From contig DASZWD010000014.1 in the NCBI GenBank assembly GCA_035546775.1, forward strand, positions 1-64,000: a stretch of 64,000 bases of DNA. The letters are read 5' to 3'. Every line of letters starts with the position of its first letter. Position 1 is the stretch's first letter. The notes beneath the pieces were generated by a model that was not told where the DNA came from, made no database searches, and saw nothing but the letters and a program-made list of their open reading frames with translations. This DNA is from Acidimicrobiales bacterium. Lineage in GTDB: Bacteria > Actinomycetota > Acidimicrobiia > Acidimicrobiales > JACCXE01. The translations under genes were made by a program, and so were the position numbers. Positions 2,003 through 22,138 of this stretch are shown here, piece after piece.

Positions 2003-3445
2003 TCAGCCGATGTCGATCGTCGGGCCGGTGTAGTTGAAGCAGCCGCAACCGTCGTCGAAACGAACAAGTCGCGCCGCGCTCGCGCCGTCGTGGCGGCCGG
2101 GACCGAACGTGTCGGCGATCGAGTACACCGGCTGGAACGACGTGCCCATCGACTCGACCGCCGTCCGCAGGGCGGCGGCGTCGAAGCGGCCGGCGCGCTC
2201 AACGGCCGCCTTGAGGAAGAACAGGGCGTCGCAGAACCGCGCGATCGAGGTGTTCTGCGCCGCCTGGTAACACAGCTTCGTGGCGTCGTTGGGTGGCGGC
2301 AGCTGGGCTGGATACACGTCGCTCGGCGGCGACCAGCCCACGGCGAGCGCGCCGTGCAGCTGACCCGCCGGAGCCTGATCGGTCACGAAATACGGGATGT
2401 CGAGCGAGTTCATGGCGTAGCGCGGCTTGAATCCCTGGGCCTGCGACGCGCTCATGAACAAGAAAGGCACGGCGCCGCCGGTCGGTACGAACAGCACGTG
2501 ATCGACCCGCTCGGCGCGCATGCGGAGGATGGCGCTGCCGATCTGCGCGCCGACGTCGGCCGCTTGCGCCGCCGAGTCGGGGTGGTTGAGGGCCACCTCG
2601 TCGACCACGTTGACGTGATGTGCGGCCAGCCGGGGCCGCAACACGTTGGCCACGAAGCGCGCGTGCTGGTCGAGGTCGTAACGCACGATGGCGACGCGCG
2701 CACCGGCGTCGAAGTAACCGCCGGACGCCAGGACGTCGACGTAGAAGCCCATGCGGTCGGCGTTCACCGAAAAGGGCATGTACAGGTAGGGCAGGTACTG
2801 CTTCCACTGCTGGCCGTCGACGACGTAGTGGTAGTCCCAGATCAGCGGAACGTGCTTCTTCGACAGACAGTCGGCGGTGACGATCGTCGGCAACACCGCG
2901 CCCGAGATCACCGCGAAGACGTGGTTGTCGTCGGCGAAGTCGGTGCACGTCGCCTGGCCCTCGGCGTCGAAAGAGCCGTCGAGCGGGTTGCTGAGGTGGA
3001 AGACGGGATCGATCTTGCGCCCGGCGATACCGCCGTGGTCGTTGATCCAGTTCACGAGGTTGCGCACGTAGGGCGTGGAGTCGGGTGGGGCGTTCTTCGC
3101 TCCGAGCGCGGTGTAGGCCGCGCCGAGGTCCTTGCTCAAGTGGAAGCCGATACGCACGGGCGCGCTCGTCGCGCGTCCGGCGACGGACGTCGCGCTCTTG
3201 CCCTTGACCGTCGACGCCGTACCCGCGGCCGCCGTTGGCGCTGTCGTGTTGCCGGTCGCAGTGTCGCCGGCCAGCGCACTCGTGGCACTGGCAGATGCTG
3301 CACTCGAGCTCGTCGACGTCGTGGCGTCGTTGCGCAGCAGCGCGTTCACGTCGACGCGCCGGCCGCCGCCGGTCGAGCACGCCGACGCAAACAGCACGAG
3401 CGTCGCCGCGGCCACCACCAGCGGTGTACGTCCCTTGTCGCTCAT
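2003..3445 (-). CDS. LivK-like substrate-binding lipoprotein
   Basis: Predicted extracytoplasmic ligand-binding protein of the branched-chain amino acid/amide (type I periplasmic binding protein) family, 480 residues. A lipoprotein signal ends in LFASACSTG with the lipidated cysteine near residue 23. A Ser/Thr/Ala-rich linker of about 75 residues follows, then the binding domain starting near VRIGFHLSKDLG. The segment with WINDHGGIAGRKI is typical of the family. The C-terminus carries an unusual DDGCGCFNYTGP motif shared with the paralogue at 20621-22138. It is divergently transcribed from the amidohydrolase at 3502 and lies about 1.4 kb from the LivHMG fusion gene, so it is a candidate binding partner for that importer. 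The ligand is unknown. Confidence 0.85.
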   Translation of the reverse strand: MSDKGRTPLVVAAATLVLFASACSTGGGRRVDVNALLRNDATTSTSSSAASASATSALAGDTATGNTTAPTAAAGTASTVKGKSATSVAGRATSAPVRIGFHLSKDLGAAYTALGAKNAPPDSTPYVRNLVNWINDHGGIAGRKIDPVFHLSNPLDGSFDAEGQATCTDFADDNHVFAVISGAVLPTIVTADCLSKKHVPLIWDYHYVVDGQQWKQYLPYLYMPFSVNADRMGFYVDVLASGGYFDAGARVAIVRYDLDQHARFVANVLRPRLAAHHVNVVDEVALNHPDSAAQAADVGAQIGSAILRMRAERVDHVLFVPTGGAVPFLFMSASQAQGFKPRYAMNSLDIPYFVTDQAPAGQLHGALAVGWSPPSDVYPAQLPPPNDATKLCYQAAQNTSIARFCDALFFLKAAVERAGRFDAAALRTAVESMGTSFQPVYSIADTFGPGRHDGASAARLVRFDDGCGCFNYTGPTIDIG

Positions 3446-3501: not shown

Positions 3502-4737
3502 GTGACCTACCGCATGGGGATCGCCGACGGCTATCCGATCATCGACGCTGATACGCACATCACCGAACCTCCGGATTTGTGGACGTCGCGCTTGCCGAAG
3601 AAGTACCTCGAGCAGGCGCCGCGCGTCATCGACGGCCTGCACGGTGGCAAGGCGTGGGCGATGCCGAACGGCAACACCATGTCGCTCAGCATCCTGATCA
3701 ACACCGCGGGTCAGCACCCCATGGACTGGGAGATGATCCCGAAGGACGGTTTCGACCGCATGCGCAAGGGCGCGTGGGATCCCGCCGAGCGCATCCAGGA
3801 CATGAACATCGACATGGTCGACGTGCACCTGATCTTCCCGTCCTACGCGTTCATGATCATGGGCAACGACAAGGATCACGACGCCTACCTGGCCAACGTG
3901 CGCGCCTACAACGACTGGATGGCCGAGTTCTGCTCGTACGCCCCCGACCGCTTGTACGCCTACGCCGCGCTGCCCCACAGCGGCGTCGAGGACGCGATCG
4001 CCGAGGCCAAGCGCATCCGCAAGTACCCGTGCTTCAAGTCGGTCGTGCTGCGCACCTGGCCCAGCGGGGCGACCGTCGCCAAGCACCCCGTCGACGACCC
4101 GTTCTGGTCGGCGATGGAGGATCTCGATCTCGGCGTCGCCTGCCACGTGGGCTTCAACATCGGTGGCGAACTACGCGATCCGGACGTCCTGCTCAATATG
4201 GCGACGCTGCCGTTCATCAACCAGGAGAAGCTCGCGATCTCCGCCATGCCGGTGCTGTCGGAGATGGTGCTCGGCGGCGCGCTCGAGCGTCACCCGCGGC
4301 TGCGCTTCGGGCTGCTCGAAGTGGGCGTCGCGTGGGTCCCGTTCTTCATGGAACAGTCCGACGACAACTACATGCGTCACCGCTTCTGGACCAACTCGCA
4401 CTTGTCGATGCCGCCGTCGGAGTACTGGAGCCGGCAGTGCTTCGCCAGCTTCCAGGTCGACACGTACGGGCTCGCCAACCGCGACCGTGTCGGCATCGAC
4501 ACCATCATGTGGACGAGCGACTACCCCCACGCCGGTTCCGACTGGCCCTACGCCCGTGAGCGCATCAACATGCAGCTCGGCCATCTGCCCGAGGACGAGA
4601 AGCGCAAGATCCTGTGTGACAACGTGGCGCGCTTCTACGGTCTCGACGCCTCCGACCTGGCGCGGGCGACGGGCGCGAGCACGAACGAGGCGAAGCCCAA
4701 GCGGGCGGCGAAGGCGCCCGTCAAGGCCCGGGCCTGA
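3502..4737 (+). CDS. Amidohydrolase-family metal-dependent hydrolase
   Basis: A TIM-barrel hydrolase or decarboxylase of the amidohydrolase_2 type (PF04909-like), 411 residues, cytoplasmic. The N-terminal metal site is IIDADTHITEPPDLW (DxHxxE). A later histidine is in ACHVGFNIGG, and the catalytic aspartate is in TIMWTSDYPHAGSDWP. The GTG start at 3502 is preceded by a purine-rich AAAGGGG about 6 nt upstream. The C-terminal 25 residues are Ala/Lys-rich. Enzymes of this subfamily act in aromatic and heterocyclic degradation in actinobacteria. The position just upstream of the importer operon suggests the same catabolic setting, but this is inference. Confidence 0.85.
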   Translation: MTYRMGIADGYPIIDADTHITEPPDLWTSRLPKKYLEQAPRVIDGLHGGKAWAMPNGNTMSLSILINTAGQHPMDWEMIPKDGFDRMRKGAWDPAERIQDMNIDMVDVHLIFPSYAFMIMGNDKDHDAYLANVRAYNDWMAEFCSYAPDRLYAYAALPHSGVEDAIAEAKRIRKYPCFKSVVLRTWPSGATVAKHPVDDPFWSAMEDLDLGVACHVGFNIGGELRDPDVLLNMATLPFINQEKLAISAMPVLSEMVLGGALERHPRLRFGLLEVGVAWVPFFMEQSDDNYMRHRFWTNSHLSMPPSEYWSRQCFASFQVDTYGLANRDRVGIDTIMWTSDYPHAGSDWPYARERINMQLGHLPEDEKRKILCDNVARFYGLDASDLARATGASTNEAKPKRAAKAPVKARA

Positions 4738-4799
4738 CGCGCTACGTTATTTCCCGTTCACATCGCGCCGGGTAGCTGAGCTCCCGGGAGAGGAGCCAG

Positions 4800-7700
4800 T
4801 TGCGGGTGGTGGGGTCCCCAAACCGGGCACGCGGCCTTCGTTGGTGGCGCGTCCTACTGGTGCTCGGTGTCGTGCTCGTGGCGCTCTTCCCCGCGACGCG
4901 CGGCCTGGCGGACGCACCGGCGCAGCAGGGCTGGTGGTACCGCCTGCACAGCGGCAGCATCGCCGCGCCGGCGCCCCCTGACGCACCCGACGGCGGGCTC
5001 TACGTCGCCGCCGATCCCGCCGGTCCGTTGGCGGTCGCCGCGCTGCGCTTCCGCGCCGCGGTGCCGGGCACGCTCACCCTGAAACTCGCGGACAGCACGG
5101 CGCCGGCGAGCACGTCGGTCGCGCTGTCGCCGGCGACCAAGGCGTGGACGGCAGTCCAAGACGGCGACTGGGCCAAGGCGCCGACCTACGACGCGTCGGT
5201 GTCGATCGCCGGCAAAGCCGCGGCGGACGGCAAGTCGATCACGTGGTCGCTACCGGCGACGTTCCCGCTCCGAGATGGCGCCATCGACGTCGTGCTGCTC
5301 CAGACCGGTTCGGGCCTGGCGTCGACGCCGCTGGTGAAGCCGGGTGGCGACGCCTACCAACCGACGGCGCCGCCCGTGACGGCGTCGACGGCGCCCGAAG
5401 TGGCGGTCACCGACGACGGCGCTGCCTTCGCCCCTGACGAGTTCGCCGGCGACATCGTTTCCGGCGACACCGTGCCGACCGACGACACGGTCGTGACCGA
5501 ACCCCCGGCGCCCGCCGGCGGCACGTTTGCCGAGCCGGGCAAGACCTTCGCCAGCGGTAGCGTTGGCAGCGGCAAGTCCGCCGGCGGCCTGCACCACCTC
5601 GAGTTTCCGTTCCCGGTGCTGGTGCTGGGCGCCATCACCGGCATGACCTACGGCATCCTCGCCGTCGGTCTGGTGCTGATCTACCGCTCGAACCGCATCA
5701 TCAATTTCGCCCACGGCGAGATCGGCGCGTTCGCCGCGGCGGTGCTCGGCGTCACCGTCACGCGCTGGCACGTGCCGTACTGGATCGCGTTCCCCGGCGC
5801 GCTCGCCATCGCGGCGGGGATCGGAGCGCTGAGCGAAGTCGTCGTGGTGCGCCGCCTGCGCAAAGCGCCGCCGGTGATGAGCATCGTCGGCACGCTCGGC
5901 CTCGCCAGCTTCCTGCTGGTGTTCTCGTTGGTGGTGAACAGCCAGGCGAGCGCGGGCCGGTTGTTCCCGCAGCCGGCGTTCCTCCCCGAGTTCGACATCG
6001 GCGCCCTTCGAGTCACCCGGGCGTACTCGGCGATGCTGTTCATCACGCCGCTGCTCGTCGCCGGCCTCGTCGTGTTCCTGCGCAAGAGCCGGTCGGGCCT
6101 CGGCATCCGCGCCGCGGCGGCCAACCAGGACGCGGCGCGCCTCGCCGGCGTCTTCGCGGCGCGCATGTCGACGCTGGCATGGGCGATCGCCGGAGCGGTG
6201 TCGGCCTTCACCGCCATCCTCGTGTTGCCGACACGCGGTTTCGCCAACGCGCAGTTTCTCGGTCCGGGCCTCCTGCTGCGTGCCCTCGCCGCCGCGGTGG
6301 TCGCGCGGATGGTCAGCCTGCCGATCGCCCTGTTCGTCGGCATCGCCGTGGGCATCGTCGAGCAGATGCTGTTGTGGAACTACCCGCGCGGCGGCCTCGT
6401 CGAGGCGGTCCTGTTCATCGGCATCCTGGCCGTGCTCGTGTTGCAGCGCAGCCGCGGGCTCACCCGCGACGAGGAGAAGGGGAGCTGGGCCGCGGTGCAG
6501 CCGTGGGAGCCGCTGCCCGAGAAGCTGCGCGAGATCTGGCCGATCCGCAACCTCGGCCTCATCATGGCGGGCATCGGCCTCGCCGTCGCCTTGTTGATGC
6601 CGGTGTTCTCGACGAACGCCACGTCGGTCACGCTCGTCGTGATCATGGCCTTCGCCATCGTCGGCCTCTCCGTCGGCGTGGTCACGGGCCTCGGCGGTCA
6701 GCTGTCGCTCGGTCAGTTCGCACTCGCGGGCGTCGGTGCCACGGTGTCCTACGTCGTCACGTACCACACCGGCAACTACTTCCTCGGCTTCCTGTGCGCC
6801 GGTCTGGCCGCGGCTGCGGTGTCGCTAGGTATCGGGATTCCGGCGCTGCGCATCCGCGGGCTCATGCTCGCCGTCACCACGCTCGGCTTCGCGCTGGCCA
6901 CCCAGGGCTGGCTGTTCCAGCAGTCCTGGATGCTCGGCGAGGGCATCGATCCCGGCCGGCCGATCATCGGCCACACCACCTTCGACACCGGCAAGAAGTA
7001 CTACCTATTCGCGCTCATCCCGCTCGTGCTGACCGTGTGGCTGGCGCGCAACATCTGGACGAGCGGCGTGGGCCGGCGCCTGCGCGCCATCCGCGACAAC
7101 GAGGCGGCGGCGCGGGCCTTCACCATCCCGTCCACCGCGGTGAAGCTGCAGGGGTTCGTGCTCGCCGGCTTCCTCGCGGGCGTCGGCGGCGCGGTGTACG
7201 GCCACGCACTGTCGCGCCTGTCGTCGACGGCGTTCCCGATCGGTGCGAGCATCAACGTCGCGGCGATGACCGTCCTTGGTGGCATCGGCGTGCTCGCCGG
7301 CCCGCTGATCGGCGCGTTCTACATCATCGGCATCCCACAGTTCCTCCCGCTCGACAATGCAGGGCTCGCGGCGACGTCGCTCGGCTGGCTCGTACTCATC
7401 TTGTACTTCCCGGGTGGCATCGCGCAGATGCTCAAGGGCGTGCGCGACCGGGTGATCGACTTCATCGCCCGGCGCGCCGGCGTCGACCCCGTCGCGATCC
7501 GCGCCGAAGAGGACGCCGCCGACGACGCCGTGCACGCGGCCGGACCGCTGGAGCTCACGCGCCACATCCCGCGCCACGTCCCCGAGGAGGGGCCGCTGCT
7601 CGAAGTGCGTGACATTGCCAAGTCCTTCGGTGGCGTGCGGGCCGTCGACGGCGTCAGCTTCGACGTGCGGCCGGGTGAGACGCTCGGGCTCATCGGCCAG

Positions 7701-8387
7701 AACGGCGCCGGCAAGACGACGCTGTTCGAGCTCATCGGCGGCTTCACCAAAGCCGACGCCGGCCAGGTCATCCTCGCCGGCAAGGACATCAGCAACTTCG
7801 GCCCCGAGGCCCGCGGTCACCTCGGCCTCATTCGCTCGTTCCAGGACGCGGCGCTGTTCCCGACGATGACGGTGCTCGAGACGGTGATGCTGTCGCTCGA
7901 GCGCGCTGAACCGACGCGGCTGCCGCTTTCACTCGTCGGGCTCGGCCGCACGGAGCGGCGCAAGGAGGAACGCGCCCGCGAACTCATCTCGGCGATGGGC
8001 CTCTACGCGTTCCGCAACAAGCAGATCGCCGCGCTGTCGACGGGTACGCGCCGCATCACCGAGTTGACGTGCCTCGTCGCCCTCGAGCCGACGCTGTTGC
8101 TGCTCGACGAACCCGCGTCGGGCATCGCGCAGCGCGAGACCGAGGCGCTCGGTGACCTGCTGGCGCGCCTGAAGCAGACCCTCGACATGACGCTGATCAT
8201 CATCGAGCACGACATCCCGCTGATCATGCGACTGTCCGATCGCGTGGTGGCGATGGAGTCGGGCCGCGTGATTGCGGACGGGACGCCCGACGAGGTGCGC
8301 AACAACCCACTCGTGGTCGAGTCGTATCTCGGCGGCGACGTGCGCGCCATCGAGCGTTCGGACGCACTCGTGGGGGTGGGGAAGTGA
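4800..8387 (+). CDS. Fused LivH-LivM-LivG ABC importer polypeptide
   Basis: A single 1195-residue protein that joins three normally separate subunits of a branched-chain amino acid-type ABC importer. Residues about 18-36 form a signal/anchor segment. Residues 40-260 form an extracytoplasmic Ala/Thr-rich, beta-type region. Residues 270-560 are a LivH-like permease (RSNRIINFAHGEIGAF), about 580-885 a LivM-like permease (GLGGQLSLGQFALAGVGA), and 920-1190 a LivG-like ATPase. The ATPase has Walker A GQNGAGKTT near 965, an atypical signature LSTGTRR near 1078 instead of LSGGQ, and Walker B LLLLDEPASG near 1100. The start is TTG with AGGAG 4 nt upstream; an in-frame GTG at 4806 is an alternative. 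The stop overlaps the next gene as TGATG. The second ATPase subunit (LivF) is on the MFS fusion two genes on. Confidence 0.9.
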   Translation: MRVVGSPNRARGLRWWRVLLVLGVVLVALFPATRGLADAPAQQGWWYRLHSGSIAAPAPPDAPDGGLYVAADPAGPLAVAALRFRAAVPGTLTLKLADSTAPASTSVALSPATKAWTAVQDGDWAKAPTYDASVSIAGKAAADGKSITWSLPATFPLRDGAIDVVLLQTGSGLASTPLVKPGGDAYQPTAPPVTASTAPEVAVTDDGAAFAPDEFAGDIVSGDTVPTDDTVVTEPPAPAGGTFAEPGKTFASGSVGSGKSAGGLHHLEFPFPVLVLGAITGMTYGILAVGLVLIYRSNRIINFAHGEIGAFAAAVLGVTVTRWHVPYWIAFPGALAIAAGIGALSEVVVVRRLRKAPPVMSIVGTLGLASFLLVFSLVVNSQASAGRLFPQPAFLPEFDIGALRVTRAYSAMLFITPLLVAGLVVFLRKSRSGLGIRAAAANQDAARLAGVFAARMSTLAWAIAGAVSAFTAILVLPTRGFANAQFLGPGLLLRALAAAVVARMVSLPIALFVGIAVGIVEQMLLWNYPRGGLVEAVLFIGILAVLVLQRSRGLTRDEEKGSWAAVQPWEPLPEKLREIWPIRNLGLIMAGIGLAVALLMPVFSTNATSVTLVVIMAFAIVGLSVGVVTGLGGQLSLGQFALAGVGATVSYVVTYHTGNYFLGFLCAGLAAAAVSLGIGIPALRIRGLMLAVTTLGFALATQGWLFQQSWMLGEGIDPGRPIIGHTTFDTGKKYYLFALIPLVLTVWLARNIWTSGVGRRLRAIRDNEAAARAFTIPSTAVKLQGFVLAGFLAGVGGAVYGHALSRLSSTAFPIGASINVAAMTVLGGIGVLAGPLIGAFYIIGIPQFLPLDNAGLAATSLGWLVLILYFPGGIAQMLKGVRDRVIDFIARRAGVDPVAIRAEEDAADDAVHAAGPLELTRHIPRHVPEEGPLLEVRDIAKSFGGVRAVDGVSFDVRPGETLGLIGQNGAGKTTLFELIGGFTKADAGQVILAGKDISNFGPEARGHLGLIRSFQDAALFPTMTVLETVMLSLERAEPTRLPLSLVGLGRTERRKEERARELISAMGLYAFRNKQIAALSTGTRRITELTCLVALEPTLLLLDEPASGIAQRETEALGDLLARLKQTLDMTLIIIEHDIPLIMRLSDRVVAMESGRVIADGTPDEVRNNPLVVESYLGGDVRAIERSDALVGVGK

Positions 8388-8866
8388 TGCGCCGCCTTGC
8401 CTTTGTCCTCGTGGTGTTGACGCTGCTGCCGGCGTGCGCTGTGAGCGGACTCGGCTTCTCGAACGACCACCGCGTTGACATCGTGGCGCCCGACAACCGC
8501 GCCAAGGTCGACCTGCCGGTCACCATCAAGTGGCGGGCGCCGGGCATCACGCACGCCGCCGACGGCACGCCGTTCTTCGTCGTGTTCCTGGACCGGGCGC
8601 CGATCCGTCCCGGACAGACGCTGCGTGCCGTGGCCGACGACAGCTGCAACCGGACGCCCGGCTGCCCGGATCTGGCGTACTTGCGCGACCGGTACGTCTT
8701 CGTCACAAAGAAGACTTCGCTCACGCTCGCCGTCGTTCCCAAGCCCACCGGTCAGCGGACCGGGGCCAAGGAGTCGCATGAGGCGACCATCGTCCTCGTG
8801 AACGCCGACGGCCGTCGCATCGGCGAAGCCGCCTACACCGTCGACTTCACGGTCAAGTCCCGATGA
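8387..8866 (+). CDS. Small lipoprotein between the two importer genes
   Basis: 159-residue predicted lipoprotein of unknown function. The signal peptide ends in LTLLPACAVS with the cysteine near residue 17. The rest has alternating hydrophobic strands (VDIVAPDNRAKVDLPVTIKW) reminiscent of an Ig-like beta sandwich, with a C-x6-C pair (DDSCNRTPGC). It overlaps the LivHMG stop by one base (TGATG), and its own stop overlaps the MFS-LivF start by four bases (ATGA). It is therefore translated with both importer genes and probably acts in the same envelope complex. An in-frame GTG one codon earlier (8384) is possible. Confidence 0.75.
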   Translation: MRRLAFVLVVLTLLPACAVSGLGFSNDHRVDIVAPDNRAKVDLPVTIKWRAPGITHAADGTPFFVVFLDRAPIRPGQTLRAVADDSCNRTPGCPDLAYLRDRYVFVTKKTSLTLAVVPKPTGQRTGAKESHEATIVLVNADGRRIGEAAYTVDFTVKSR

Positions 8867-11136
8867 CGACGACGTCGCGACGCACCAAGAAGACGGAGAA
8901 GCAAATGGCTGCGACCGTTGAACATCTCACCGAGATCCACGAGGCGGAGGCCGCCGTCGACACCCTCGAGTTGAGCCAGGACCGCCTGCGCGAGCGGGCG
9001 CGCCAGGTCATGGGCATCACCGGTGAGAAGGATGAGTCGACGCTCGTGCGGTTGCGCGACGGGATCGCGCAATCCAAGACCGGGTGGTACCCGCTGATCG
9101 CGCTCGGCGCACTCATCATCGTCGACCAGTTCCAGGGATTCGCGTTCTCGATCCTCGGCCCGGAAATCAGCCGCTCGCTGGGCGTGAGCAAGGGGCTGCT
9201 GGCGTTCCTCGTCCTGATCAAGACGATCACGATCACGTTCTCGTCCCTGCCGATCGCCGCCATCGTGCAGGGCAAGCCGCGCCGCGCCATGGTGGCCAAG
9301 GTCAGCGGCGCGGTGTGGAGCCTCGCCACTCTGGCGTCGGGCTTCGTCATCAACGTGTGGGGTCTGCTGCTCGTGCTGGTGGCCGACGGCGCGTCGACGG
9401 CGTCGGTCGAGTCGGTACACGCGCCCCTCATCATGGACAGCTACCCGACGAACGTGCGCGTGCGCGCCCTGTCGGCGTATCGCGGCGCCGTCGCCATCGG
9501 CACCGTGGCGGCGCCGCTGCTCGTCGGTCTCGTCACCGGCGTGTTCGACAAGACGTGGCGCTTCGTGTTCGTATCGATGGGCATCATCTGCTTGATCGCC
9601 GTGGCGGTTGCCTCGCGGTTGAAGGACCCGGGCTTCGGCGTGTTCGACACGGAGAAGATCAAGCAGGAAGTGCACCGCGACGCCGGCAACGGCACGGCGG
9701 AGGCGGCTCCGGACGTCGAACTCGGCTTCTTCGAGATCGTGCGGCGCGTCATGCTCATCCCGACGATCCGACGCCTGCTCGGAGCGTGGGCGGCAATCGG
9801 CGTGATGCTGTTCCCGTTCTACACGTTCCTCTTCTTCTTCCTCGACGAGAAGTGGGGCATGGGGCCGGGCGCCCGCTCGGTGTTCTTCGCCTTCGTGTGG
9901 GCCTGCGCCGTGCCGGCGCTCGCGTGGTTCGGCCGGCGCGGCGAAGCGATGTTCCGGGAGGACCCGGCCAAGCTGACGCGCTTCGTGTCGTTGCTCCTCA
10001 TCGGTGTCGTCATCGGCCTCGCCGTGGGCGTCGCGTCACCGGTGTTCCCCCTTATGGTCGCGGGCTTCGCCCTTGTGTTCCTGATGGCCACGATGCTCAC
10101 CCCCGCCGTGAGCATGATCGTGCTGTCGGTTGTCCCACCGAAGATGCGACCGCACACCTCCGCCCTGCTCGGCATCTTCCTCGCCGGAGTCGGTGGCATC
10201 GGCGGGCTGCTGCTGCTGAGCGGGATCGACCGCCGCTTCGGCCTCGCGGGCGCCATCGTGTCGCTCTCGGGCCCGATCCTCATTGCTGCCTTCGTGGTCT
10301 ACCGCACAGCGCCGCAGGTGCCGCTCGACCTCGATCGCATGATCGACGAGATCGTCGAGCGCGAAGAGCTGCGCGTCATGCAGAGCCAGGGCGTGCACCT
10401 GCCGATGCTTGCGTGCCGCCACATCGACTTCGCCTATGACCGCCTGCAGGTGCTTTTCGACGTGAACTTCACCGTCGACGACGGCGAGATGGTGGCCCTG
10501 CTCGGTACGAACGGCGCCGGCAAGTCGACGCTGCTGCGGGTCATCTCCGGACTCGGCCTGCCGTCGAAGGGCAGCGTGCACTTCCGCGGCGCCGAGATCA
10601 CCTACCTCGACGCCGAGCGAAGGCTGCATCACGGCATCACCCAGATCCCGGGCGGGCGCGCCGTGTTCGGCCCGATGACGGTCCTCGACAACCTGCGCGT
10701 CTACGGCCACAGCCTGGGACGCCGGCCGAGCGCCGTCGATGCCGGAATCGACAAGACCTTCGACGCTTTCCCCCGCCTCGCCGAGCGCCGCAACCAACTG
10801 GCCTCGACGTTGTCGGGCGGCGAGCAGCAGATGCTCGGTCTCGGCAAGGCGTTCATCCTCGAACCCCGCCTGCTGCTCATCGACGAGTTGTCGCTCGGTC
10901 TCGCGCCCAAGATCGTCGGCGAATTGCTCGAGATGGTGCGCCAGATCAACGCCCAGGGCACCGCCGTCGTCCTCGTCGAGCAGTCGGTGAACATCGCGCT
11001 GTCGCTCGTGAACCACGCGTACTTCATGGAGAAGGGCGAGATCCGCTTCGACGGGCGGGCCCAAGACCTGCTCGACCGCCCCGACTTGCTGCGCTCGGTG
11101 TTCCTCGAAGGCGCGGCGAAGGGCCTCGGCCACTGA
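8863..11136 (+). CDS. MFS-type transporter fused to a LivF-like ABC ATPase
   Basis: A 757-residue fusion of two transporter classes. Residues about 75-490 form a polytopic major-facilitator-like domain (first helix GWYPLIALGALIIVDQFQGF). Residues 510-757 form a LivF-type ATPase with Walker A LGTNGAGKSTLL near 547, signature LSGGEQQMLGLG near 650 and Walker B LLLIDELSLGLAP near 670. A hydrophilic segment of 70 residues precedes the first helix. The ATPase half supplies the second nucleotide-binding subunit missing from the upstream LivHMG fusion. The ATG at 8863 overlaps the previous stop. A second in-frame ATG at 8905 has GGAG 6 nt upstream and could be the real start. Whether the MFS half transports or serves as a scaffold or sensor is unknown. 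Confidence 0.88.
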   Translation: MTTTSRRTKKTEKQMAATVEHLTEIHEAEAAVDTLELSQDRLRERARQVMGITGEKDESTLVRLRDGIAQSKTGWYPLIALGALIIVDQFQGFAFSILGPEISRSLGVSKGLLAFLVLIKTITITFSSLPIAAIVQGKPRRAMVAKVSGAVWSLATLASGFVINVWGLLLVLVADGASTASVESVHAPLIMDSYPTNVRVRALSAYRGAVAIGTVAAPLLVGLVTGVFDKTWRFVFVSMGIICLIAVAVASRLKDPGFGVFDTEKIKQEVHRDAGNGTAEAAPDVELGFFEIVRRVMLIPTIRRLLGAWAAIGVMLFPFYTFLFFFLDEKWGMGPGARSVFFAFVWACAVPALAWFGRRGEAMFREDPAKLTRFVSLLLIGVVIGLAVGVASPVFPLMVAGFALVFLMATMLTPAVSMIVLSVVPPKMRPHTSALLGIFLAGVGGIGGLLLLSGIDRRFGLAGAIVSLSGPILIAAFVVYRTAPQVPLDLDRMIDEIVEREELRVMQSQGVHLPMLACRHIDFAYDRLQVLFDVNFTVDDGEMVALLGTNGAGKSTLLRVISGLGLPSKGSVHFRGAEITYLDAERRLHHGITQIPGGRAVFGPMTVLDNLRVYGHSLGRRPSAVDAGIDKTFDAFPRLAERRNQLASTLSGGEQQMLGLGKAFILEPRLLLIDELSLGLAPKIVGELLEMVRQINAQGTAVVLVEQSVNIALSLVNHAYFMEKGEIRFDGRAQDLLDRPDLLRSVFLEGAAKGLGH

Positions 11137-11149
11137 CCCCAGGAGAGTC

Positions 11150-11986
11150 ATGACGTACAAGAACGAAACCATCCTCGTCGACATCGACGGCGGCGTGGCC
11201 ACGGTCACGCTGAACCGTCCCGACGCCCACAACGCCATGGACGCGGCGATGCTCGACGAGTTTCACGCCGCGCTGCGCGGCCTCGACGCCGACCCCGCCG
11301 TGCGCGCCATCGTGCTTACCGGCGCCGGCAAGTCGTACTGCGCCGGGGTTGACATCTCGAGCGGGGCCGATGCCTTCCACCAGGACGAGAACAGCGCCCT
11401 CGAAGCCGACGCGGCGATGGTCGTCGACAACTTCTCGCTGTGGCGCCTGCGCACGCCCCTCATCGGCGCCATCAACGGCGCGGCGATCGGCGCCGGGCTC
11501 ACGCTGGCGTTGCTCGTCGACATCGTGTTCGTGGCCGACGACGCCAAGCTCAGCTTCCGCTTCAGCCGCCTCGGCATCCTGCCGGAGGCCAACTCGCTGT
11601 GGCTGCTGCCGCGCCTCGTCGGCATCCAGCATGCGCTCGACCTGTTGCTGTCGGGCCGCGACTTCTCCGGCGCCGAGGCCGCGGCGATCGGTCTTGTCAA
11701 GCAAGCGGTGCCCCGCGCCGAACTGCTGGCGACGGCGCAGGCGTACGCCCGCGACATCGCCGACAACGCATCACCGATGTCGACGGCGCTCATCAAGCGC
11801 CTGACGTACCAGTACCTCCAGGAGACCGACCGCGGCGCGGCCATGACCGAGGAGACCGACTGGACGTGGTGGACGGGAACGCAGCCCGACATCGTCGAGG
11901 CCATGACGGCGCGCATGGAACGCCGGGCGCCGCAGTGGATCACCACCAAGCTCGACGTGCCCGACAAGCTCCCGCCGCGCGACTGA
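11150..11986 (+). CDS. Enoyl-CoA hydratase/isomerase family protein
   Basis: 278-residue crotonase-fold protein, cytoplasmic, acting on acyl-CoA thioesters. The oxyanion-hole segments are TGAGKSYCAGVDIS (near 57-70) and AINGAAIGAGLTLALLVDI (near 105-123). In the usual active-site region the sequence reads LSFRFSRLGILPEANS. This lacks the canonical PE and GAGGTQ residues of true hydratases and is closer to the isomerase-like branch (PE followed by LLPRLVG). AGGAG lies about 7 nt before the ATG. It is 13 nt behind the MFS-LivF gene and 1 nt before the amidase gene, so it belongs to the operon. It could be an isomerase, hydrolase or hydratase. Confidence 0.88.
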   Translation: MTYKNETILVDIDGGVATVTLNRPDAHNAMDAAMLDEFHAALRGLDADPAVRAIVLTGAGKSYCAGVDISSGADAFHQDENSALEADAAMVVDNFSLWRLRTPLIGAINGAAIGAGLTLALLVDIVFVADDAKLSFRFSRLGILPEANSLWLLPRLVGIQHALDLLLSGRDFSGAEAAAIGLVKQAVPRAELLATAQAYARDIADNASPMSTALIKRLTYQYLQETDRGAAMTEETDWTWWTGTQPDIVEAMTARMERRAPQWITTKLDVPDKLPPRD

Positions 11987-11987
11987 C

Positions 11988-13400
11988 GTGAGTGCCACTC
12001 CGCTCACCGTGAAGGACGCAGCCGCGGCGCTACGCGCCGGTGAGGTCACGAGCGTCGCGCTCACCCAGGCGGCGATCGATCGCGCCGAGCGGCTCGACAA
12101 GGAACTCGGCACCTACATCGTCCGCGGTGACGACGCGGCGCTCGCCGCCGCGGCGGCCGCCGACGCCAAGTTCGCCGCGGGCGTCGACGACGGCCCGCTG
12201 CAAGGCATCCCCGTCGGCGTGAAGGACATCGTCGCCACCGCCGACGCGCCGACCACGTGCCAGAGCCTGGTGATGGACCCGGAGTGGTGCGCCGGAGAGG
12301 ACGCGCCGGTCGTCGCCCGCTTGCGCGCCGCCGGTGCGGTGATCACCGGTAAGACGACGACGATGGAGTTCGCCATCGGTACGCCCGACTTCTCCAAGCC
12401 GTTCCCGATCCCGCGCAACCCTTGGAACACGGAGTGCTGGGCCGGCGGGTCGAGTTCGGGTACCGGCAACGGCGTCGCCGCCGGACTGTTCTTCGCCGGT
12501 ATCGGCACCGACACCGGCGGCAGCATCCGTATCCCGTCGGCGTTCTGCGGCGTGACCGGGCTCATGCCGACGTACGGGCGCGTGCCGAAGTCGGGCGTGT
12601 TCCCGCTCGGCTACTCGCTCGACCACACCGGCCCGCTGGCGCGCGGCGCGTGGGACTGCGCGGCGATGCTCGACGTGCTCGCCGGCTACGACGCCACGGA
12701 CCCGTACTGCTCGCAACGTCCCGTCGACGACTACGTCGGCGCGCTTACCGGATCCGTCGACGGCCTGCGCATCGGCGTGGTGCGCGCTTTTCACTTCGCG
12801 CCCGACGACGACCCCTCCGTCGTTGCCGCCTTCGACGCCGCCGTCGCCCAGTTGGGCGACCTCGGTGCGCGCGTGACGGAGATCGTGTTGCCGTACTACC
12901 TGGAGATCACGGCCGCGATGCTCGTCACGATGTGCGCCGAGGCGTTCGCCATTCACCGCCGGGATATGGCGAGCCGCTGGGACGACTACTTCGAGAACAC
13001 GCGGCAGATCGTGGCGCTGGGCGCGCTGTTCAGCGGTAGCGACTACGTGCAGGCGCAGCGCGTGCGCCGCGTTGCGCAGCGCGCGCTGGCGGGGTTGTTC
13101 AGCGACGTCGACGTGATCCTCACGCCCACGGCGACCGTGGGGTCTCCGACGTATGCCGCCATGGAGGCGAGTGGCCCGCTCGGCCTGCTGGCCAAAGTGC
13201 ACACGGGATACTGGGACGCGGTCGGCAACCCGGTGCTCGCGCTGCCAATCGGCTTCACCTCCGAAGGCCTGCCGCTGAGCATGCAACTGGCGGGTCGACC
13301 CTTCGACGAGGCCACGATCCTGCGCGCCGGCGACGCGTACCAGTCGGCCACCGACTGGCACGTGCGTATCCCGCCCATGGCCCAGGAGGTGCAGGCATGA
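11988..13400 (+). CDS. Amidase signature-family enzyme
   Basis: 470-residue cytoplasmic amidase of the GatA/AtzE class, which hydrolyses a carboxamide with a Ser-cisSer-Lys triad. The lysine is visible in IPVGVKDIVATAD near residue 80. The glycine/serine-rich signature is WAGGSSSGTGNGVAAG, followed by GIGTDTGGSIRIPSAFCG. The start is GTG one base after the crotonase stop. The C-terminus overlaps by four bases (ATGA) with a 59-residue GatC-like gene, so the pair is probably a two-subunit enzyme. There is no GatB nearby, so this is unlikely to be the tRNA amidotransferase. The substrate is unknown. Confidence 0.9.
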   Translation: MSATPLTVKDAAAALRAGEVTSVALTQAAIDRAERLDKELGTYIVRGDDAALAAAAAADAKFAAGVDDGPLQGIPVGVKDIVATADAPTTCQSLVMDPEWCAGEDAPVVARLRAAGAVITGKTTTMEFAIGTPDFSKPFPIPRNPWNTECWAGGSSSGTGNGVAAGLFFAGIGTDTGGSIRIPSAFCGVTGLMPTYGRVPKSGVFPLGYSLDHTGPLARGAWDCAAMLDVLAGYDATDPYCSQRPVDDYVGALTGSVDGLRIGVVRAFHFAPDDDPSVVAAFDAAVAQLGDLGARVTEIVLPYYLEITAAMLVTMCAEAFAIHRRDMASRWDDYFENTRQIVALGALFSGSDYVQAQRVRRVAQRALAGLFSDVDVILTPTATVGSPTYAAMEASGPLGLLAKVHTGYWDAVGNPVLALPIGFTSEGLPLSMQLAGRPFDEATILRAGDAYQSATDWHVRIPPMAQEVQA

Positions 13401-13576
13401 CCGACGAGGAGAAGGTCTCGGTGCTGTTCGCCGCGGCCGGGATCTCCCCGCACGCCGAGGAGCTGACGTTCTTCGCCAACGCCTACCCGATGATGCGGAT
13501 GATGGCCGACATGCTCTACACCGTCGACGCCGCCAAAGACGAGTCTCCCGGACTCGTCTTCGAGCCCGCGCCGTGA
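13397..13576 (+). CDS. GatC/AtzG-like small amidase subunit
   Basis: 59-residue acidic protein starting MTDEEKVSVLFAAAGIS and ending ESPGLVFEPAP. The order of elements (a helix with EEL and a spaced Phe, then a second helix, then an acidic/Pro-containing tail) resembles GatC and the AtzG-like (DUF4089-type) proteins that accompany dedicated amidases. It overlaps the amidase stop by four bases and the CocE start by four (GTGA), so translation is coupled on both sides. The family assignment rests on pattern, size and context, not on an alignment. It may stabilise the amidase or wrap around it as GatC does with GatA. Confidence 0.65.
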   Translation: MTDEEKVSVLFAAAGISPHAEELTFFANAYPMMRMMADMLYTVDAAKDESPGLVFEPAP

Positions 13577-15255
13577 TCTTGGGCGTCGCGCGCGGACTGC
13601 TGTGTTTCGCGCTCGCGAGCGTGCTCGGTATCGCGGCGTTCGCTCCCGCGGCGGGCGCGTCGGACCCAAACGCGTACACGTTGACGCAGACGTACATCGC
13701 GTCGAGCAACGGTGTGAAGTTGCACACGGCGGTGTTCCGTCCCGCAGGTGCCGGGCCTACCGCGAAGACCCCCGTCATCCTCACCGTCAGCCCGTACTTC
13801 ACGAGCGGCATGACACCGCTCGGTCCCTACGACCCCTCGGGCAACCCGACGCCGACCCCGGGGAGCTTCGCCGAGCGCGCGTCGGTCTTCGCCCACGGCT
13901 ACAGCGTGGTGCAGGTGGCCTTGCGCGGCTACGGCGCCAGCACGGGTTGCTACGACGAGGGCGGCCCGGGTGAGCGCCAGGACGTGAAGCGCGCCGTCGA
14001 GTGGGCGGCGTCGCAGCCGTGGTCGACGGGCAGGGTCGGCATGGTCGGCCACAGCTACGACGCGCAGACGCAGTTGATGGCGCTCGGCATGCACCCGAAG
14101 GGACTTGCCGCGGTCGTGCCGTCGGCGGCGCCCGCGGGCTACGCCAACTTCTTCTCCGCGGGCGTGAGCACGGTGACGGGCCGCGCCTTCGGTGCCTTCT
14201 ACGGCGTCAGCGACCTCCTGCCGCCGAGCACCAAGGCGCCGGCGTCACAACAGGTGAACGCCGCGCACGGTCCGCTGTCGTACCCCACGTGTTATGCGAC
14301 CACGCCGGTGGGCACCTACTCCGATCGCGCCGACAGCCGGTACTGGCGCGACCGCGACCTCGGCGCGCTGGCGGCGGGCACCACCATCCCGGTGATGGCG
14401 GAGCAGGGCTTCGACGACTTCAACGTGCGGTCGTCGAACTTCACCGCGTTCTGGTCGGGCCTCAAGGGCCCCAAGCGCGCCTTCCTCGGTCCGTGGGATC
14501 ACGGCCTCAGCCACGACGGGCCGGGCAACACCTTCGAGACGCTGCGCTGGCTCGACGCGTGGGTGAAGAACGACCCCGCAGCGCAGGCCTACGAGCGTGC
14601 CGCGCCGCCGATCACGGTGCAGGACATCGACGGTCGCTACCGGGCCGAGGAGACGTGGCCGCCGGCCGATGCAGTGGGGAAGGCGTTCCGCATCCGCAGC
14701 GGCGACTACCTCGACAGTGCCGTCAACTTCAGCGAGAACGGGCTGCCGCCCGCGGTGACCGGCGCCGCCGGACTCAAGAAAGCGCCCACGCCGCTGCCCA
14801 CCGGCGTCGGCACGTGGACGTTCTCGCAGCCGCTGGCGCAGTCGCTGCGCATCTCCGGTCAACCGTCGGCGCGCGTGCACGTTCGCAGCGTCGCGCCCCG
14901 CACGACGCTGATCGCCCTGCTCTACGACGTGGCGCCGAACGGCAACGCCAAGTTCGTCGGCCGCGGCGGTCGCCTCCTGCGCGCCCGCGGCGAGCAGACC
15001 GTCACCGTCACGCTGTACCCGAACGACTGGGAGTTCGCACCCGGCCACCGCGTCGGTCTACTGCTCACCGGTTCTGACGGCGTGTGGCTCGAGACCGGCA
15101 ACACCGGCACCGTCGTCCACGTCATCGGCGGCAGCCTCGTCCTACCGGCGCTCACCCAGCCGCGCACCGCGTTCTTGCCCGGTGGCCCCTATCCGGTGCT
15201 GCCGCAGATCCCGCCGTTCCGCATCAGCCCGCAGACGATCCGCCAACGCAGCTAG
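13573..15255 (+). CDS. Secreted CocE/NonD-type alpha/beta hydrolase
   Basis: 560-residue X-Pro dipeptidyl-peptidase/cocaine-esterase family hydrolase. It begins with a signal peptide (LCFALASVLGIAAFAPAAGAS), so it should act outside the membrane. The nucleophile elbow is MVGHSYDAQTQ near residue 160, a variant of the usual GxSYxG. A likely acid/base histidine is in LGPWDHGLSHDG. The C-terminal 200 residues form the jelly-roll domain typical of the family. The GTG start overlaps the GatC-like gene. As the last gene of the importer operon it could release an amide or ester substrate outside the cell before uptake. Confidence 0.87.
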   Translation: MILGVARGLLCFALASVLGIAAFAPAAGASDPNAYTLTQTYIASSNGVKLHTAVFRPAGAGPTAKTPVILTVSPYFTSGMTPLGPYDPSGNPTPTPGSFAERASVFAHGYSVVQVALRGYGASTGCYDEGGPGERQDVKRAVEWAASQPWSTGRVGMVGHSYDAQTQLMALGMHPKGLAAVVPSAAPAGYANFFSAGVSTVTGRAFGAFYGVSDLLPPSTKAPASQQVNAAHGPLSYPTCYATTPVGTYSDRADSRYWRDRDLGALAAGTTIPVMAEQGFDDFNVRSSNFTAFWSGLKGPKRAFLGPWDHGLSHDGPGNTFETLRWLDAWVKNDPAAQAYERAAPPITVQDIDGRYRAEETWPPADAVGKAFRIRSGDYLDSAVNFSENGLPPAVTGAAGLKKAPTPLPTGVGTWTFSQPLAQSLRISGQPSARVHVRSVAPRTTLIALLYDVAPNGNAKFVGRGGRLLRARGEQTVTVTLYPNDWEFAPGHRVGLLLTGSDGVWLETGNTGTVVHVIGGSLVLPALTQPRTAFLPGGPYPVLPQIPPFRISPQTIRQRS

Positions 15256-15850: not shown

Positions 15851-17605
15851 TTAGAACGGCAAAGGTGGGAGCACCATCGGACCGGGCTCGGGCTGGATCG
15901 GGAGAGTCACGTAGCTGGGGTGCTCGGCGTCGTGGAACAACGCGGTGTGGGCGACGGGGCCCGAGGCGTCGTCGCCGACCGAGTTGCCGGTGTTCATATT
16001 GCGGTCGAGGTGGGGGAACGCGCTCGACGTGATCTGCAAGCGCACGGACATGCCGGGTTCGAAGCGGTAGCCGCAGGGACCCAGCTGCACTTCGATGCCG
16101 TAGACGGCGCCGGGTTCGAGCAGTGACGGCGTCGTGTACCCGTCGCGGTAGCGGGCGCGCACCGCGCCGTCGGCCAGGTTGATCGACGTGCCGCCGGGCC
16201 ACACGACGCACAGCTTCACGACGAAGTCGGTGTCCTTGACGTCGGTGCTGAACCACAGGTTGGCGGTGATGTCACCCACGAGTTCGGTCGGCTCGGTGAA
16301 GGGCGGCGACGTGTAGCAGAGGACGTCGTCGCGCTGCTCGACGCGGGTTTGCTCGTACGGTCCCGCGACCGTGGTGCCGCCGGTGTACATGACGCGGAAG
16401 CCCCACGACGGCGCTGGGTCGTGCGGGTTGTACTCGTAGCAGTCGGGTGACTCGCTGGACACGGGTTCGGCGCGGGACAGAACACCGTCGCCCGCGGCCG
16501 AGTTCGCACGGCCGCGGGAGTGGAGGTACCAGCGCTGGAACTCGGTGCCGGGGATCGGCCAGGCATCGGCCTCCCGCCACTCGTTGACGCCGAGCACGAA
16601 GTAGCGCACCGGCGCGATGTCGACGTCGGCGCCGCGGAGGTGACGGTCGTAGTACTTGAGGTGCAGCGCGGCCACGCCGGAGCCTTCGGCCGAACCCAGC
16701 CCGCCGACGCCGAGACAGCCGACGAAGTTGCCGGCGAAGTTGTGCGTCCACGGACCGATGATCATGCGCGTGTCGTTGCGGGCCACTTCGGTGGCCGACG
16801 TCTCGCGCATCAAGTTGAACTGGTCGGCCCCGCCCGCGTTGTCGTACCAGCCCCACGTCCATAGCGCCGGCACGTGGAACAGCTTCTCCTGATGGCCACC
16901 CTTGAGCGTCACCACGTTCTCGACCATCTCGACCGTGTCGGTGTAGCGCGGCATGCCGGCGCTGCGCAGCGTGAGCAAGTCTCGTAGTGGCAGCGTCTGT
17001 GACGCCAAGTCGGGACGGGTCATGGCGTTGAGCAGAGTCGTGAGGTCGGCCGGGTCGGCGCCTCCCGTCGGCAGCAGCTTCATCACGCGGTCGATGGCGA
17101 GGCCCGACATCCAGCCGATGGTCATCGACTCGAGCGGCAGACTGCCGTGGCCGATCGCCCGCACCGGTCCCATGCCCATGAGCGACGGGGCGATGGCGCG
17201 CAGGTGCGGCGGGTTGCTCATGGCCGCCGCGATCTGGGTTTCGGCGACGTACGAGCCGCCCGCCATGCCGACGTTGCCGTCGCTCCAAGGCTGCGACGCC
17301 ACCCACTCGATCGTGTCGTACCCGTCGTCGACGTTGGCGGCGGTCAGATCCTTGAAGTCCCACTCGCCCTCGGACGCGAAGCGGCCGCGGATGTCCTGCA
17401 GCACGTAGGCGTAGCCCGCCTGCGCCGCGGTCCACGGCGGGCAGTACCGGTTCGTGGCGAACTGGACGCCCTTGTTGTACGGCGTGCGCGACACGATCGC
17501 CGGCACCTTCGCGTTGATGTCGGGGCGCACGACGTCGGCGCGCAGGATGACGCCGTCGCGCGTCTTCATCTCGACGTCATAGTCGATGCGGATGCTGTGA
17601 GGCAT
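15851..17605 (-). CDS. CocE/NonD-type alpha/beta hydrolase (cytoplasmic)
   Basis: 584-residue member of the X-Pro dipeptidyl-peptidase/CocE family. Unlike its neighbour at 13573 it has no signal peptide. The nucleophile elbow GMAGGSYVAETQ lies near residue 140. A likely His is in IIGPWTHNFAG, and a C-terminal jelly-roll domain follows (PTELVGDITANLWFST). It is 5 nt behind the kinase/aminotransferase fusion gene, so the two are co-transcribed. It would hydrolyse ester or amide bonds of small molecules; the substrate is unknown. Confidence 0.88.
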   Translation of the reverse strand: MPHSIRIDYDVEMKTRDGVILRADVVRPDINAKVPAIVSRTPYNKGVQFATNRYCPPWTAAQAGYAYVLQDIRGRFASEGEWDFKDLTAANVDDGYDTIEWVASQPWSDGNVGMAGGSYVAETQIAAAMSNPPHLRAIAPSLMGMGPVRAIGHGSLPLESMTIGWMSGLAIDRVMKLLPTGGADPADLTTLLNAMTRPDLASQTLPLRDLLTLRSAGMPRYTDTVEMVENVVTLKGGHQEKLFHVPALWTWGWYDNAGGADQFNLMRETSATEVARNDTRMIIGPWTHNFAGNFVGCLGVGGLGSAEGSGVAALHLKYYDRHLRGADVDIAPVRYFVLGVNEWREADAWPIPGTEFQRWYLHSRGRANSAAGDGVLSRAEPVSSESPDCYEYNPHDPAPSWGFRVMYTGGTTVAGPYEQTRVEQRDDVLCYTSPPFTEPTELVGDITANLWFSTDVKDTDFVVKLCVVWPGGTSINLADGAVRARYRDGYTTPSLLEPGAVYGIEVQLGPCGYRFEPGMSVRLQITSSAFPHLDRNMNTGNSVGDDASGPVAHTALFHDAEHPSYVTLPIQPEPGPMVLPPLPF

Positions 17606-20532: not shown

Positions 20533-20607
20533 CGAACCACGCGTCCGTCGAGGCTCCCCACGCGACGAGCCTAGCGGTGCGCCGGGAACCGGGACCGGAA
20601 CAGCGGT

Positions 20608-20613
20608 TAACCT
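20608..20613 (+). promoter_or_regulatory. -10-like TAACCT box, LivK-like gene 20621
   Basis: TAACCT ends 7 nt before ATG 20621, so transcription would start at or next to the start codon. Ribosome-site purines are absent. Confidence 0.5.
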
Positions 20614-20620
20614 CCGGGCG

Positions 20621-22138
20621 ATGCGACTCCGGGGGATCACAGCGGTCCGGATCGTCACCGCCGCGTGCGTCGCGTTGTTCTACGGGGGCCTCGTCGGCCT
20701 CGCGGTCAGCGCGACGTTCGGCCGCGACGACGCCCGCACGGGCCCCGTCGGCGGGACGGCGCTGGCGCGCCGCGACGTCGGCCTGACGGTGCCGAGCGAA
20801 GGTGACGCCTCCGTACCCGACGCGGCCACGATCGCCGGCGCGCCGACCACGTCGAACCTCGGCGTGAACGCGGTTGCAACCGCGAGTCCGCCCTCGACGC
20901 GCCCCACGAACCCGGCGGCAATCAAGTCGGCGGCGGCGCGGCCGATCCAGGTCGGGATCCAGTTCAACGATCCGAGTTCGGACACGGCCTACAACGTGCT
21001 CGGCGTCAAGGGCACGACCACTGGCGACGGCAAGGGTGCGTACCAAGCGCTCATCGCCGACATCAACGCGCGCGGAGGTCTCGGCGGGCGCAAGGTCGTT
21101 CCCGTCTTCTATTCGAACAACAACACGCAGGGCACCTTCGACTCGCAGAGCCAGGCGGCGTGCTCGGCCTTCACCGAGGACAACCGGGTGGAGCTCGCGG
21201 TCGTCACCGGCACGGCGAGCCGGCTGCTGCCCAGTTGCATGGCGGCGCACCACGTGCCGACGCTGCCGGTGGGCAACATCATCCTCGACGACACGCTGAT
21301 GTCGCAGTGGGCGCCCTACGTCTACTGGGAAGGCATGCTGAGCCTCGATCGGTGGGCCCCGTGGATCGACCTGCTCGCGTCCAACGGCTACTTCGACCCG
21401 GGCGCCCGCGTCGGGCTCGTCGCCTACGACACGGCGATGCACCACCGTGTCGTCGAGCGCGTGATCACTCCCGCGCTGGCGCGCGTAAAGCACGCACCGG
21501 TCGACGTGGCCTACGTCGGCGAACCGCAGTCGGTCAGCGGCCTGGGCTCGAGCGCGACGGAGTTGAGCAACGTGATCCTGCGCTTCCGCAGCCAGCAGAT
21601 CGACCACGTGATGTTCGTGGCGACGCAGGGCGCGGTGCCGTTCCTGTGGATGCCCGAAGCCGATTCACAGGGGTACCGCCCGCGGTACGGGCTGACGACG
21701 GCCGACTTTCCCTACGTCGTGCAGGCGAACGCGTCGGCGAACCAGATGCGCGGCGCGCTGGGCATGGGGTGGACGCCGGTGCGCGACGTCAACTACGCGC
21801 AGGACCCGGGCGGCAATCCCGCGGCCACGCGCTGCGAGGCGCTTATGGCCAAGGCCGGGAACGCGTCGTCGGATCGTTCGGCGGATTGGCAGTCCCACAT
21901 TGCGCCCTGCGAGGCGATGTTCTTCTTCGAGGCGGTCATGGCGCACGGCGGCGAAGCGGGTGGCGCCGCGTTCCGATCGGGCGTCGACCAGCTCGGCACG
22001 TCGTACGAGTCACCGCACACGTTTGCCACCCGCTTCGTGTCCGGTCACTTCGACGGCGCGTCGAAAGTGCGACTCCTGCGCTACGACCAGGGGTGCGCGT
22101 GTTTTTCCTACGCCGGCCCGCTCGTGGACGTCCCGTAG
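20621..22138 (+). CDS. LivK-like substrate-binding protein, second copy
   Basis: 505-residue extracytoplasmic binding protein of the type I family, paralogous to the one at 2003-3445. An N-terminal hydrophobic segment (ITAVRIVTAACVALFYGGLV) anchors or exports it, and there is no clear lipobox. An Ala/Thr/Pro-rich linker leads to a binding domain beginning near IQVGIQFNDPSSDTAYNVLG. It contains DINARGGLGGRKV and ends with QGCACFSYAGP, matching the Cys-x-Cys-Phe tail of the paralogue. The ATG lies 7 nt behind a TAACCT box, suggesting a leaderless transcript. It may serve the same fused importer with a different ligand; this is inference. Confidence 0.83.
   Translation: MRLRGITAVRIVTAACVALFYGGLVGLAVSATFGRDDARTGPVGGTALARRDVGLTVPSEGDASVPDAATIAGAPTTSNLGVNAVATASPPSTRPTNPAAIKSAAARPIQVGIQFNDPSSDTAYNVLGVKGTTTGDGKGAYQALIADINARGGLGGRKVVPVFYSNNNTQGTFDSQSQAACSAFTEDNRVELAVVTGTASRLLPSCMAAHHVPTLPVGNIILDDTLMSQWAPYVYWEGMLSLDRWAPWIDLLASNGYFDPGARVGLVAYDTAMHHRVVERVITPALARVKHAPVDVAYVGEPQSVSGLGSSATELSNVILRFRSQQIDHVMFVATQGAVPFLWMPEADSQGYRPRYGLTTADFPYVVQANASANQMRGALGMGWTPVRDVNYAQDPGGNPAATRCEALMAKAGNASSDRSADWQSHIAPCEAMFFFEAVMAHGGEAGGAAFRSGVDQLGTSYESPHTFATRFVSGHFDGASKVRLLRYDQGCACFSYAGPLVDVP

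Follow-up and report, generated by a model that had tools for sequence, protein, structure and literature searches.

ABC and MFS proteins are transporter superfamilies of very large size that normally differ in their power source, ATP in the one and ion gradients in the other. The described systems closest to the locus reported here are the LivKHMGF importer (HAAT, TC 3.A.1.4) on the ABC side, and the Spinster transporters HnSpns, SPNS1 and SPNS2 on the MFS side. In HnSpns, Asp41 and Glu129 were described as buried proton switches, with the buried arginine Arg122 nearby and Asp87 in motif A, and the D41N/E129Q variant was found no longer to undergo the change that protons bring about on the intracellular side (PMC9440201). 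The same TM1/TM4 network was backed by a preprint on a mycobacterial Spns (PMC13192786). The window, that is, the whole stretch of 64,000 nucleotides that was analysed, is contig C14 of a 3.75-Mb draft genome (75 contigs, 97.5% complete), and it encodes an importer of the first type in which a domain of the second type is joined to one of the ATPases.

Domain Organization of the Importer

The features of the locus are as follows.

2003..3445 (−): LivK-like substrate-binding protein (Peripla_BP_6; Pfam E = 2e-16)
3502..4737 (+): Amidohydro_2 enzyme (Pfam; not conserved in the clade)
4787..4795 (+): Shine-Dalgarno-like ggagaggag 5' of the chain 1 TTG start (sequence)
4800..8387 (+): chain 1, signal peptide, CBM-like outer domain, LivH, LivM and LivG (TTG start, 1195 aa)
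4908..5420 (+): extracytoplasmic jelly-roll domain fused onto chain 1 (homologs, structure model)
5607..6449 (+): LivH permease domain (profile match; BPD_transp_2)
6564..7478 (+): LivM permease domain (profile match; BPD_transp_2)
7590..8342 (+): LivG ATPase domain (PRK11300 E = 2e-61; PF12399; motifs)
8384..8387 (+): GTGA overlap of lipoprotein start and chain 1 stop (sequence)
8384..8866 (+): lipoprotein with lipobox LLPAC and a small domain (GTG start, 160 aa; clade marker)
8863..8866 (+): ATGA overlap of chain 2 start and lipoprotein stop (sequence)
8863..11136 (+): chain 2, Spns-like MFS and LivF ATPase (ATG start, 757 aa)
9070..10356 (+): Spinster-like MFS domain with the proton-coupling residues replaced (profile, fold, residue alignment)
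10315..10386 (+): helix from the MFS part into LivF, residues 485–508 (chain 2 model)
10405..11115 (+): LivF ATPase domain (PRK11614 E = 2e-53; motifs)
11150..11986 (+): enoyl-CoA hydratase (Pfam; also in L035 and L041)
11988..13400 (+): amidase (Pfam; not conserved in the clade)
20621..22138 (+): second LivK-like protein (286-bit match to the 2003..3445 protein)

The two fusions asserted by the earlier note, LivH-LivM-LivG and MFS-LivF, were confirmed from the open reading frames and their Pfam domains: chain 1 matched BPD_transp_2 twice, ABC_tran and the PF12399 branched-chain ATPase tail, and chain 2 matched MFS_1 (profile positions 6–343 of 347) and ABC_tran. The best NCBIfam matches were LivG for the ATPase of chain 1 and LivF for that of chain 2, both below the curated equivalog cut-offs. 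By motif reading, LivG presents Walker A GQNGAGKT, signature LSTGT and H-loop EHD, and LivF presents Walker A GTNGAGKS, signature LSGGE and VEQ in the H-loop position; Walker A and Walker B are retained in both, the signature being canonical in LivF only. The locus thereby displays two BPD_transp_2 permeases, a LivG-type ATPase with its PF12399 tail, a LivF-type ATPase, intact ATP-binding motifs and a LivK-like protein encoded nearby, all of them features of HAAT/LivFGHM importers. Both LivK-like proteins announced near the importer were recovered, although the second had no Pfam match. The fixed 1:1 stoichiometry that had been proposed may reasonably be inferred, since the subunits are fused. 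Across the Liv loci, most LivG proteins of the lineage carry LSTGT or LSTGS in place of the LSGGQ signature, and LivF retains LSGGE/Q with VEQ at the H-loop; judged from these motifs, the Liv loci possibly have two ATP sites of which one is consensus and the other degenerate.

Chain 1 had been described as LivH, LivM and LivG only. This composition holds, but ahead of LivH the chain also carries a signal peptide and then an extracytoplasmic domain (roughly residues 37–207), both of which had been missed. The outer domain, whose junction with LivH constitutes a third fusion at the locus, is homologous to a secreted protein whose gene lies near the Liv-MFS loci L005, L029, L034, L035, L042, L046 and L072, complete separate copies of which possess a C-terminal hydrophobic stretch. 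Its model (pLDDT 86.8) is a jelly roll with CBMs as the closest folds (7vbo, Z 11.4; 8wab, Z 10.7), and a Foldseek search with it gave no match with E under 0.001. Binding of a ligand or sugar by this domain is a guess, as the Foldseek result alone is not significant. The small lipoprotein gene was found, as claimed, wedged between both chains, sharing four bases with each neighbour (GTGA and ATGA), and these overlaps suggest translational coupling.

The AlphaFold2 model of chain 2, obtained for this one chain alone, presented a complete MFS fold (pLDDT 92.8, pTM 0.89). The nearest folds were SPNS2 (8ex5, Z 39.8) and SPNS1 (9boi, Z 39.7) for the MFS half and 1ji0 (Z 33) for the LivF half, and the sequence profile of the MFS domain matched HnSpns over most of its length (E = 2.8e-44). 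Sequence and fold both place the domain in the Spns branch. The spacer between the MFS and LivF profile matches was near-constant across the fusions (13–29 residues).

Distribution and Locus Forms

With a 29-row profile (E ≤ 1e-130), MFS-LivF fusions were found in 80 of the 296 sampled genomes of Acidimicrobiia and in 19 of the 396 genomes of a phylum sample, nearly all of them matched over the whole fusion. Cultured carriers are Kribbella pittospori NRRL B-24813 (L053), Yinghuangia seranimata and Embleya sp. NBC_00888, the record of the latter having no annotation at the locus. The concern that the long frames might break was answered by relatives of chain 2 at 53–62%, full length and uninterrupted by stops, from four further genomes of the order. 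Co-occurrence of the two fusions in related genomes was looked for and found: at every locus with enough DNA, MFS-LivF lies beside a fused LivH-LivM chain, with LivG on either chain and rarely separate, and a split between LivH and LivM was seen at none of these loci. The one-chain LivH-LivM-LivG form (HMG) with MFS-F was observed in 31 loci, HM with MFS-F-G in about 30 and a separate LivG in a few; these counts include a few contigs twice, and the split LivG of L033 looks like a frameshift.

The genome of the window holds about 20 Liv loci, 16 of which have a joint LivH-LivM chain. They comprise one-chain HMFG (five), HMG with a separate F (two), HM with FG (one), HM with MFS-F-G (three), HMG with MFS-F (the window) and partly or fully unfused sets. 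Liv fusion is therefore ordinary in this genome, and the striking element is the MFS-LivF join. The five one-chain loci (L007, L010, L013, L016 and L019) carry LivH, LivM, LivF and LivG in one frame of 1237–1361 codons, and in L013 a free Spns-like MFS (962-2374, −) lies about 2.9 kb from the one-chain importer. Frames above 1700 codons read in L043–L048 and L050 had suggested giant single chains of 1700–2200 aa, which were rejected for these loci: the MFS frame is just open upstream across the HM gene, which sits in another frame. L082 (CAMDCI010000036.1), titled Bifidobacterium breve, has an MFS-LivF-LivG locus near-identical to that of the Actinomycetota MAG L083 and is probably a mislabelled MAG.

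In the tree of MFS domains, the window falls into a clade of 13 (SH-aLRT 100, stem length 1.46), hereafter the window clade, and the free-standing MFS proteins L013, L133, L134, L135, L136 and L137 nest among the MFS-F-G fusions. Two members of the window clade, Kribbella and a Frankiales MAG, lie outside the class, which suggests transfer between lineages. The kept core of the clade consists of HMG, MFS-F, the lipoprotein and LivK, and the surrounding enzymes vary. The lipoprotein was present in all 12 testable loci, directly upstream of MFS-LivF in 11, and was absent from the MFS-LivF loci compared outside the clade; relatives of the LivK-like protein at 2003..3445 were found in 9 of the 13 loci.

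The coupling of the importer to amide/ester and acyl-CoA enzymes, and with it a dedicated uptake-and-degradation system, had also been put forward. The enzymes are indeed present at the window locus, but across the 13 clade loci the neighbours are not conserved, so that a degradation system could be spoken of only locally. A degradation pathway shared across the clade was likewise rejected, the neighbours being aminotransferase, thiolase, MlrC, MR_MLE and carboxylesterase, varying by locus. From the nearby enzymes, the substrate may be an amide, an ester or an acyl compound, a hint that holds for the window locus only. Two hydrolases of the S15/PepX_C (CocE-like) type and an acyltransferase of the AAT family (PF03417) are also encoded near the importer (13573-15255, +; 15851-17605, −; 22143-23177, −). 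Another fusion in the window is a 1015-aa protein (17611-20658, −) that joins an APH-type kinase domain to a class-III aminotransferase.

Proton-Coupling Residues and Selection

The comparison with HnSpns rests on D41, D87, R122 and E129, the Y277 and R289 rows being left out. At these four positions the window has Q91, Q136, L172 and T179, so the proton-coupling set is missing. The D41 position is acidic in none of the 13 members of the window clade versus 50 of the 58 other fusions, the motif-A D87 is found in 0 of 12 aligned clade rows versus 58/58 other fusions and 11/11 free MFS proteins, and R122 in 0/13 versus 53/58 and 11/11, respectively. The E129 position is Thr or Ser in the clade; as this glutamate is missing in most sister fusions and relatives too, it is uninformative alone and is no clade marker. 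With D41, D87 and R122 lost, proton drive is an unlikely basis for a second path in the window clade. All 13 clade loci descend from the one stem branch, and the losses may accordingly represent one set of events, retained since. New charges have appeared in the clade, namely D175 (12 of 13) and Lys or Arg at 330 (12 of 13), from which a rewired coupling network is possible. The residues W232, P256, G259, D192 and R429 are kept across the family.

In the closest pair of loci the pN/pS value was 0.32 for the MFS part, 0.38 for LivH and 0.32 for LivM, and this similarity indicates that the MFS part is not decaying; in more distant pairs its constraint was often weaker than that of LivF. Across 54 loci, the distances of the MFS part correlated with those of LivH and LivM (r 0.85–0.86) as well as the LivH distances did with those of LivM (0.86). 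Within the window clade (12 loci) the correlation between MFS and LivH was 0.24, versus 0.85 between LivH and LivG. Such low tracking would fit a changed role of the MFS domain and not a tight structural interface.

Proposed Mechanism and Alternative Explanations

The window locus is best read, with about an even chance of this being right, as encoding a two-chain ATP-driven LivFGHM-type importer in which the MFS domain would be a built-in helper that is not driven by protons. LivK would hand the substrate to the LivH/LivM channel, and the LivG/LivF pair would supply the power. The MFS domain, its proton drive presumably lost with the coupling residues, would keep LivF at the membrane next to LivHM and may give a lipophilic substrate a passive side entry. 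The lipoprotein and the CBM-like domain would be outer-face parts, serving in substrate capture or envelope docking.

The earlier note had raised a possible second path for transport, running through the MFS half. On this reading, that half would be an active secondary transporter, physically coupled to the ABC importer and working in import or in export or exchange of a product or lysolipid. The complete MFS fold agrees with two such paths, as do the D41, D87 and R122 mostly retained in the sister fusions and the free MFS proteins nested among the MFS-F-G fusions, which suggest that the domain can work alone there, outside the window clade. In sister clades a second path is accordingly plausible, but in the window clade it is weakened by the replacement of the named coupling residues throughout. 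The Spns proton-coupling data come from other proteins. We consider a second path rather unlikely here. The same loss of residues, together with MFS distances decoupled from LivH inside the clade, would be expected if the domain served only to tether LivF to the membrane and to set its dosage, without any transport-related role. Twelve conserved helices would, however, be needless for a simple anchor, W232, P256, G259, D192 and R429 would hardly be kept across the family, and a pN/pS close to the values of the two permeases would not be expected for the MFS part in the closest pair; the tether is thus also an improbable explanation.

Lost proton coupling with retained purifying selection could also mean that the energy source was switched, ATP turnover by LivF moving the MFS domain through the linker helix. 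The near-constant spacer and the helical linker of the high-pTM model point this way. Against this, LivF is expected to engage LivHM and LivG, and the model is that of one chain alone, which makes direct ATP drive a distinctly remote explanation. A broader form of the idea, in which the MFS fold was taken over by the ABC importer, lost its proton coupling in this clade once fused to LivF and is now part of the ATP-driven machine, being either moved by ATP or a passive gate for the same substrate, is held only tentatively and as rather doubtful. A frameshift, misassembly or chimeric contig might be suspected from the draft state of the genome, with its 75 contigs, and from the seemingly frame-broken LivG of the relative L033. 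The same fusions recur in dozens of genomes, among them cultured and single-contig ones, and an assembly artefact was rejected as having a negligible probability. The importer with a built-in, non-proton-driven MFS helper remains the preferred reading.

Comparison with Known Systems

An MFS domain fused to a Liv ATPase was found neither described nor tested in the open-access papers searched, most subscription papers lying outside that scope. A HAAT importer that has a Spns-like domain built in is thus apparently undescribed, this novelty being provisional because the literature coverage is partial. A lineage-wide ABC-MFS fusion with one branch devoid of the proton-coupling residues makes the re-powering of an MFS fold, or its reduction to a helper, testable. 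For annotation, such genes can be mistaken for a common MFS transporter or a common LivF.

The window MFS domain resembles the Spinster transporters in its sequence profile match and fold, and differs from them in being fused to an ABC ATPase and in the replacement of the positions of HnSpns D41, D87, R122 and E129. With the LivKHMGF importer the locus shares the two BPD_transp_2 permeases, LivG with the PF12399 tail, LivF and a LivK-like protein nearby, whereas it has two chains instead of four separate subunits and its LivF lies behind an MFS domain; it further has a dedicated lipoprotein and a CBM-like outer domain on LivH. The one-chain HMFG importers, five of them in the same genome, also have fused Liv domains, but all four of these lie on one chain and no MFS is present. 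The loci with HM and MFS-LivF-LivG, known from the window genome (C19, C44 and C45) and the class, have the same parts, MFS family and pairing rule as the window, and are distinguished from it by LivG on the MFS chain, by the missing lipoprotein and by D41, D87 and R122, which are mostly kept.
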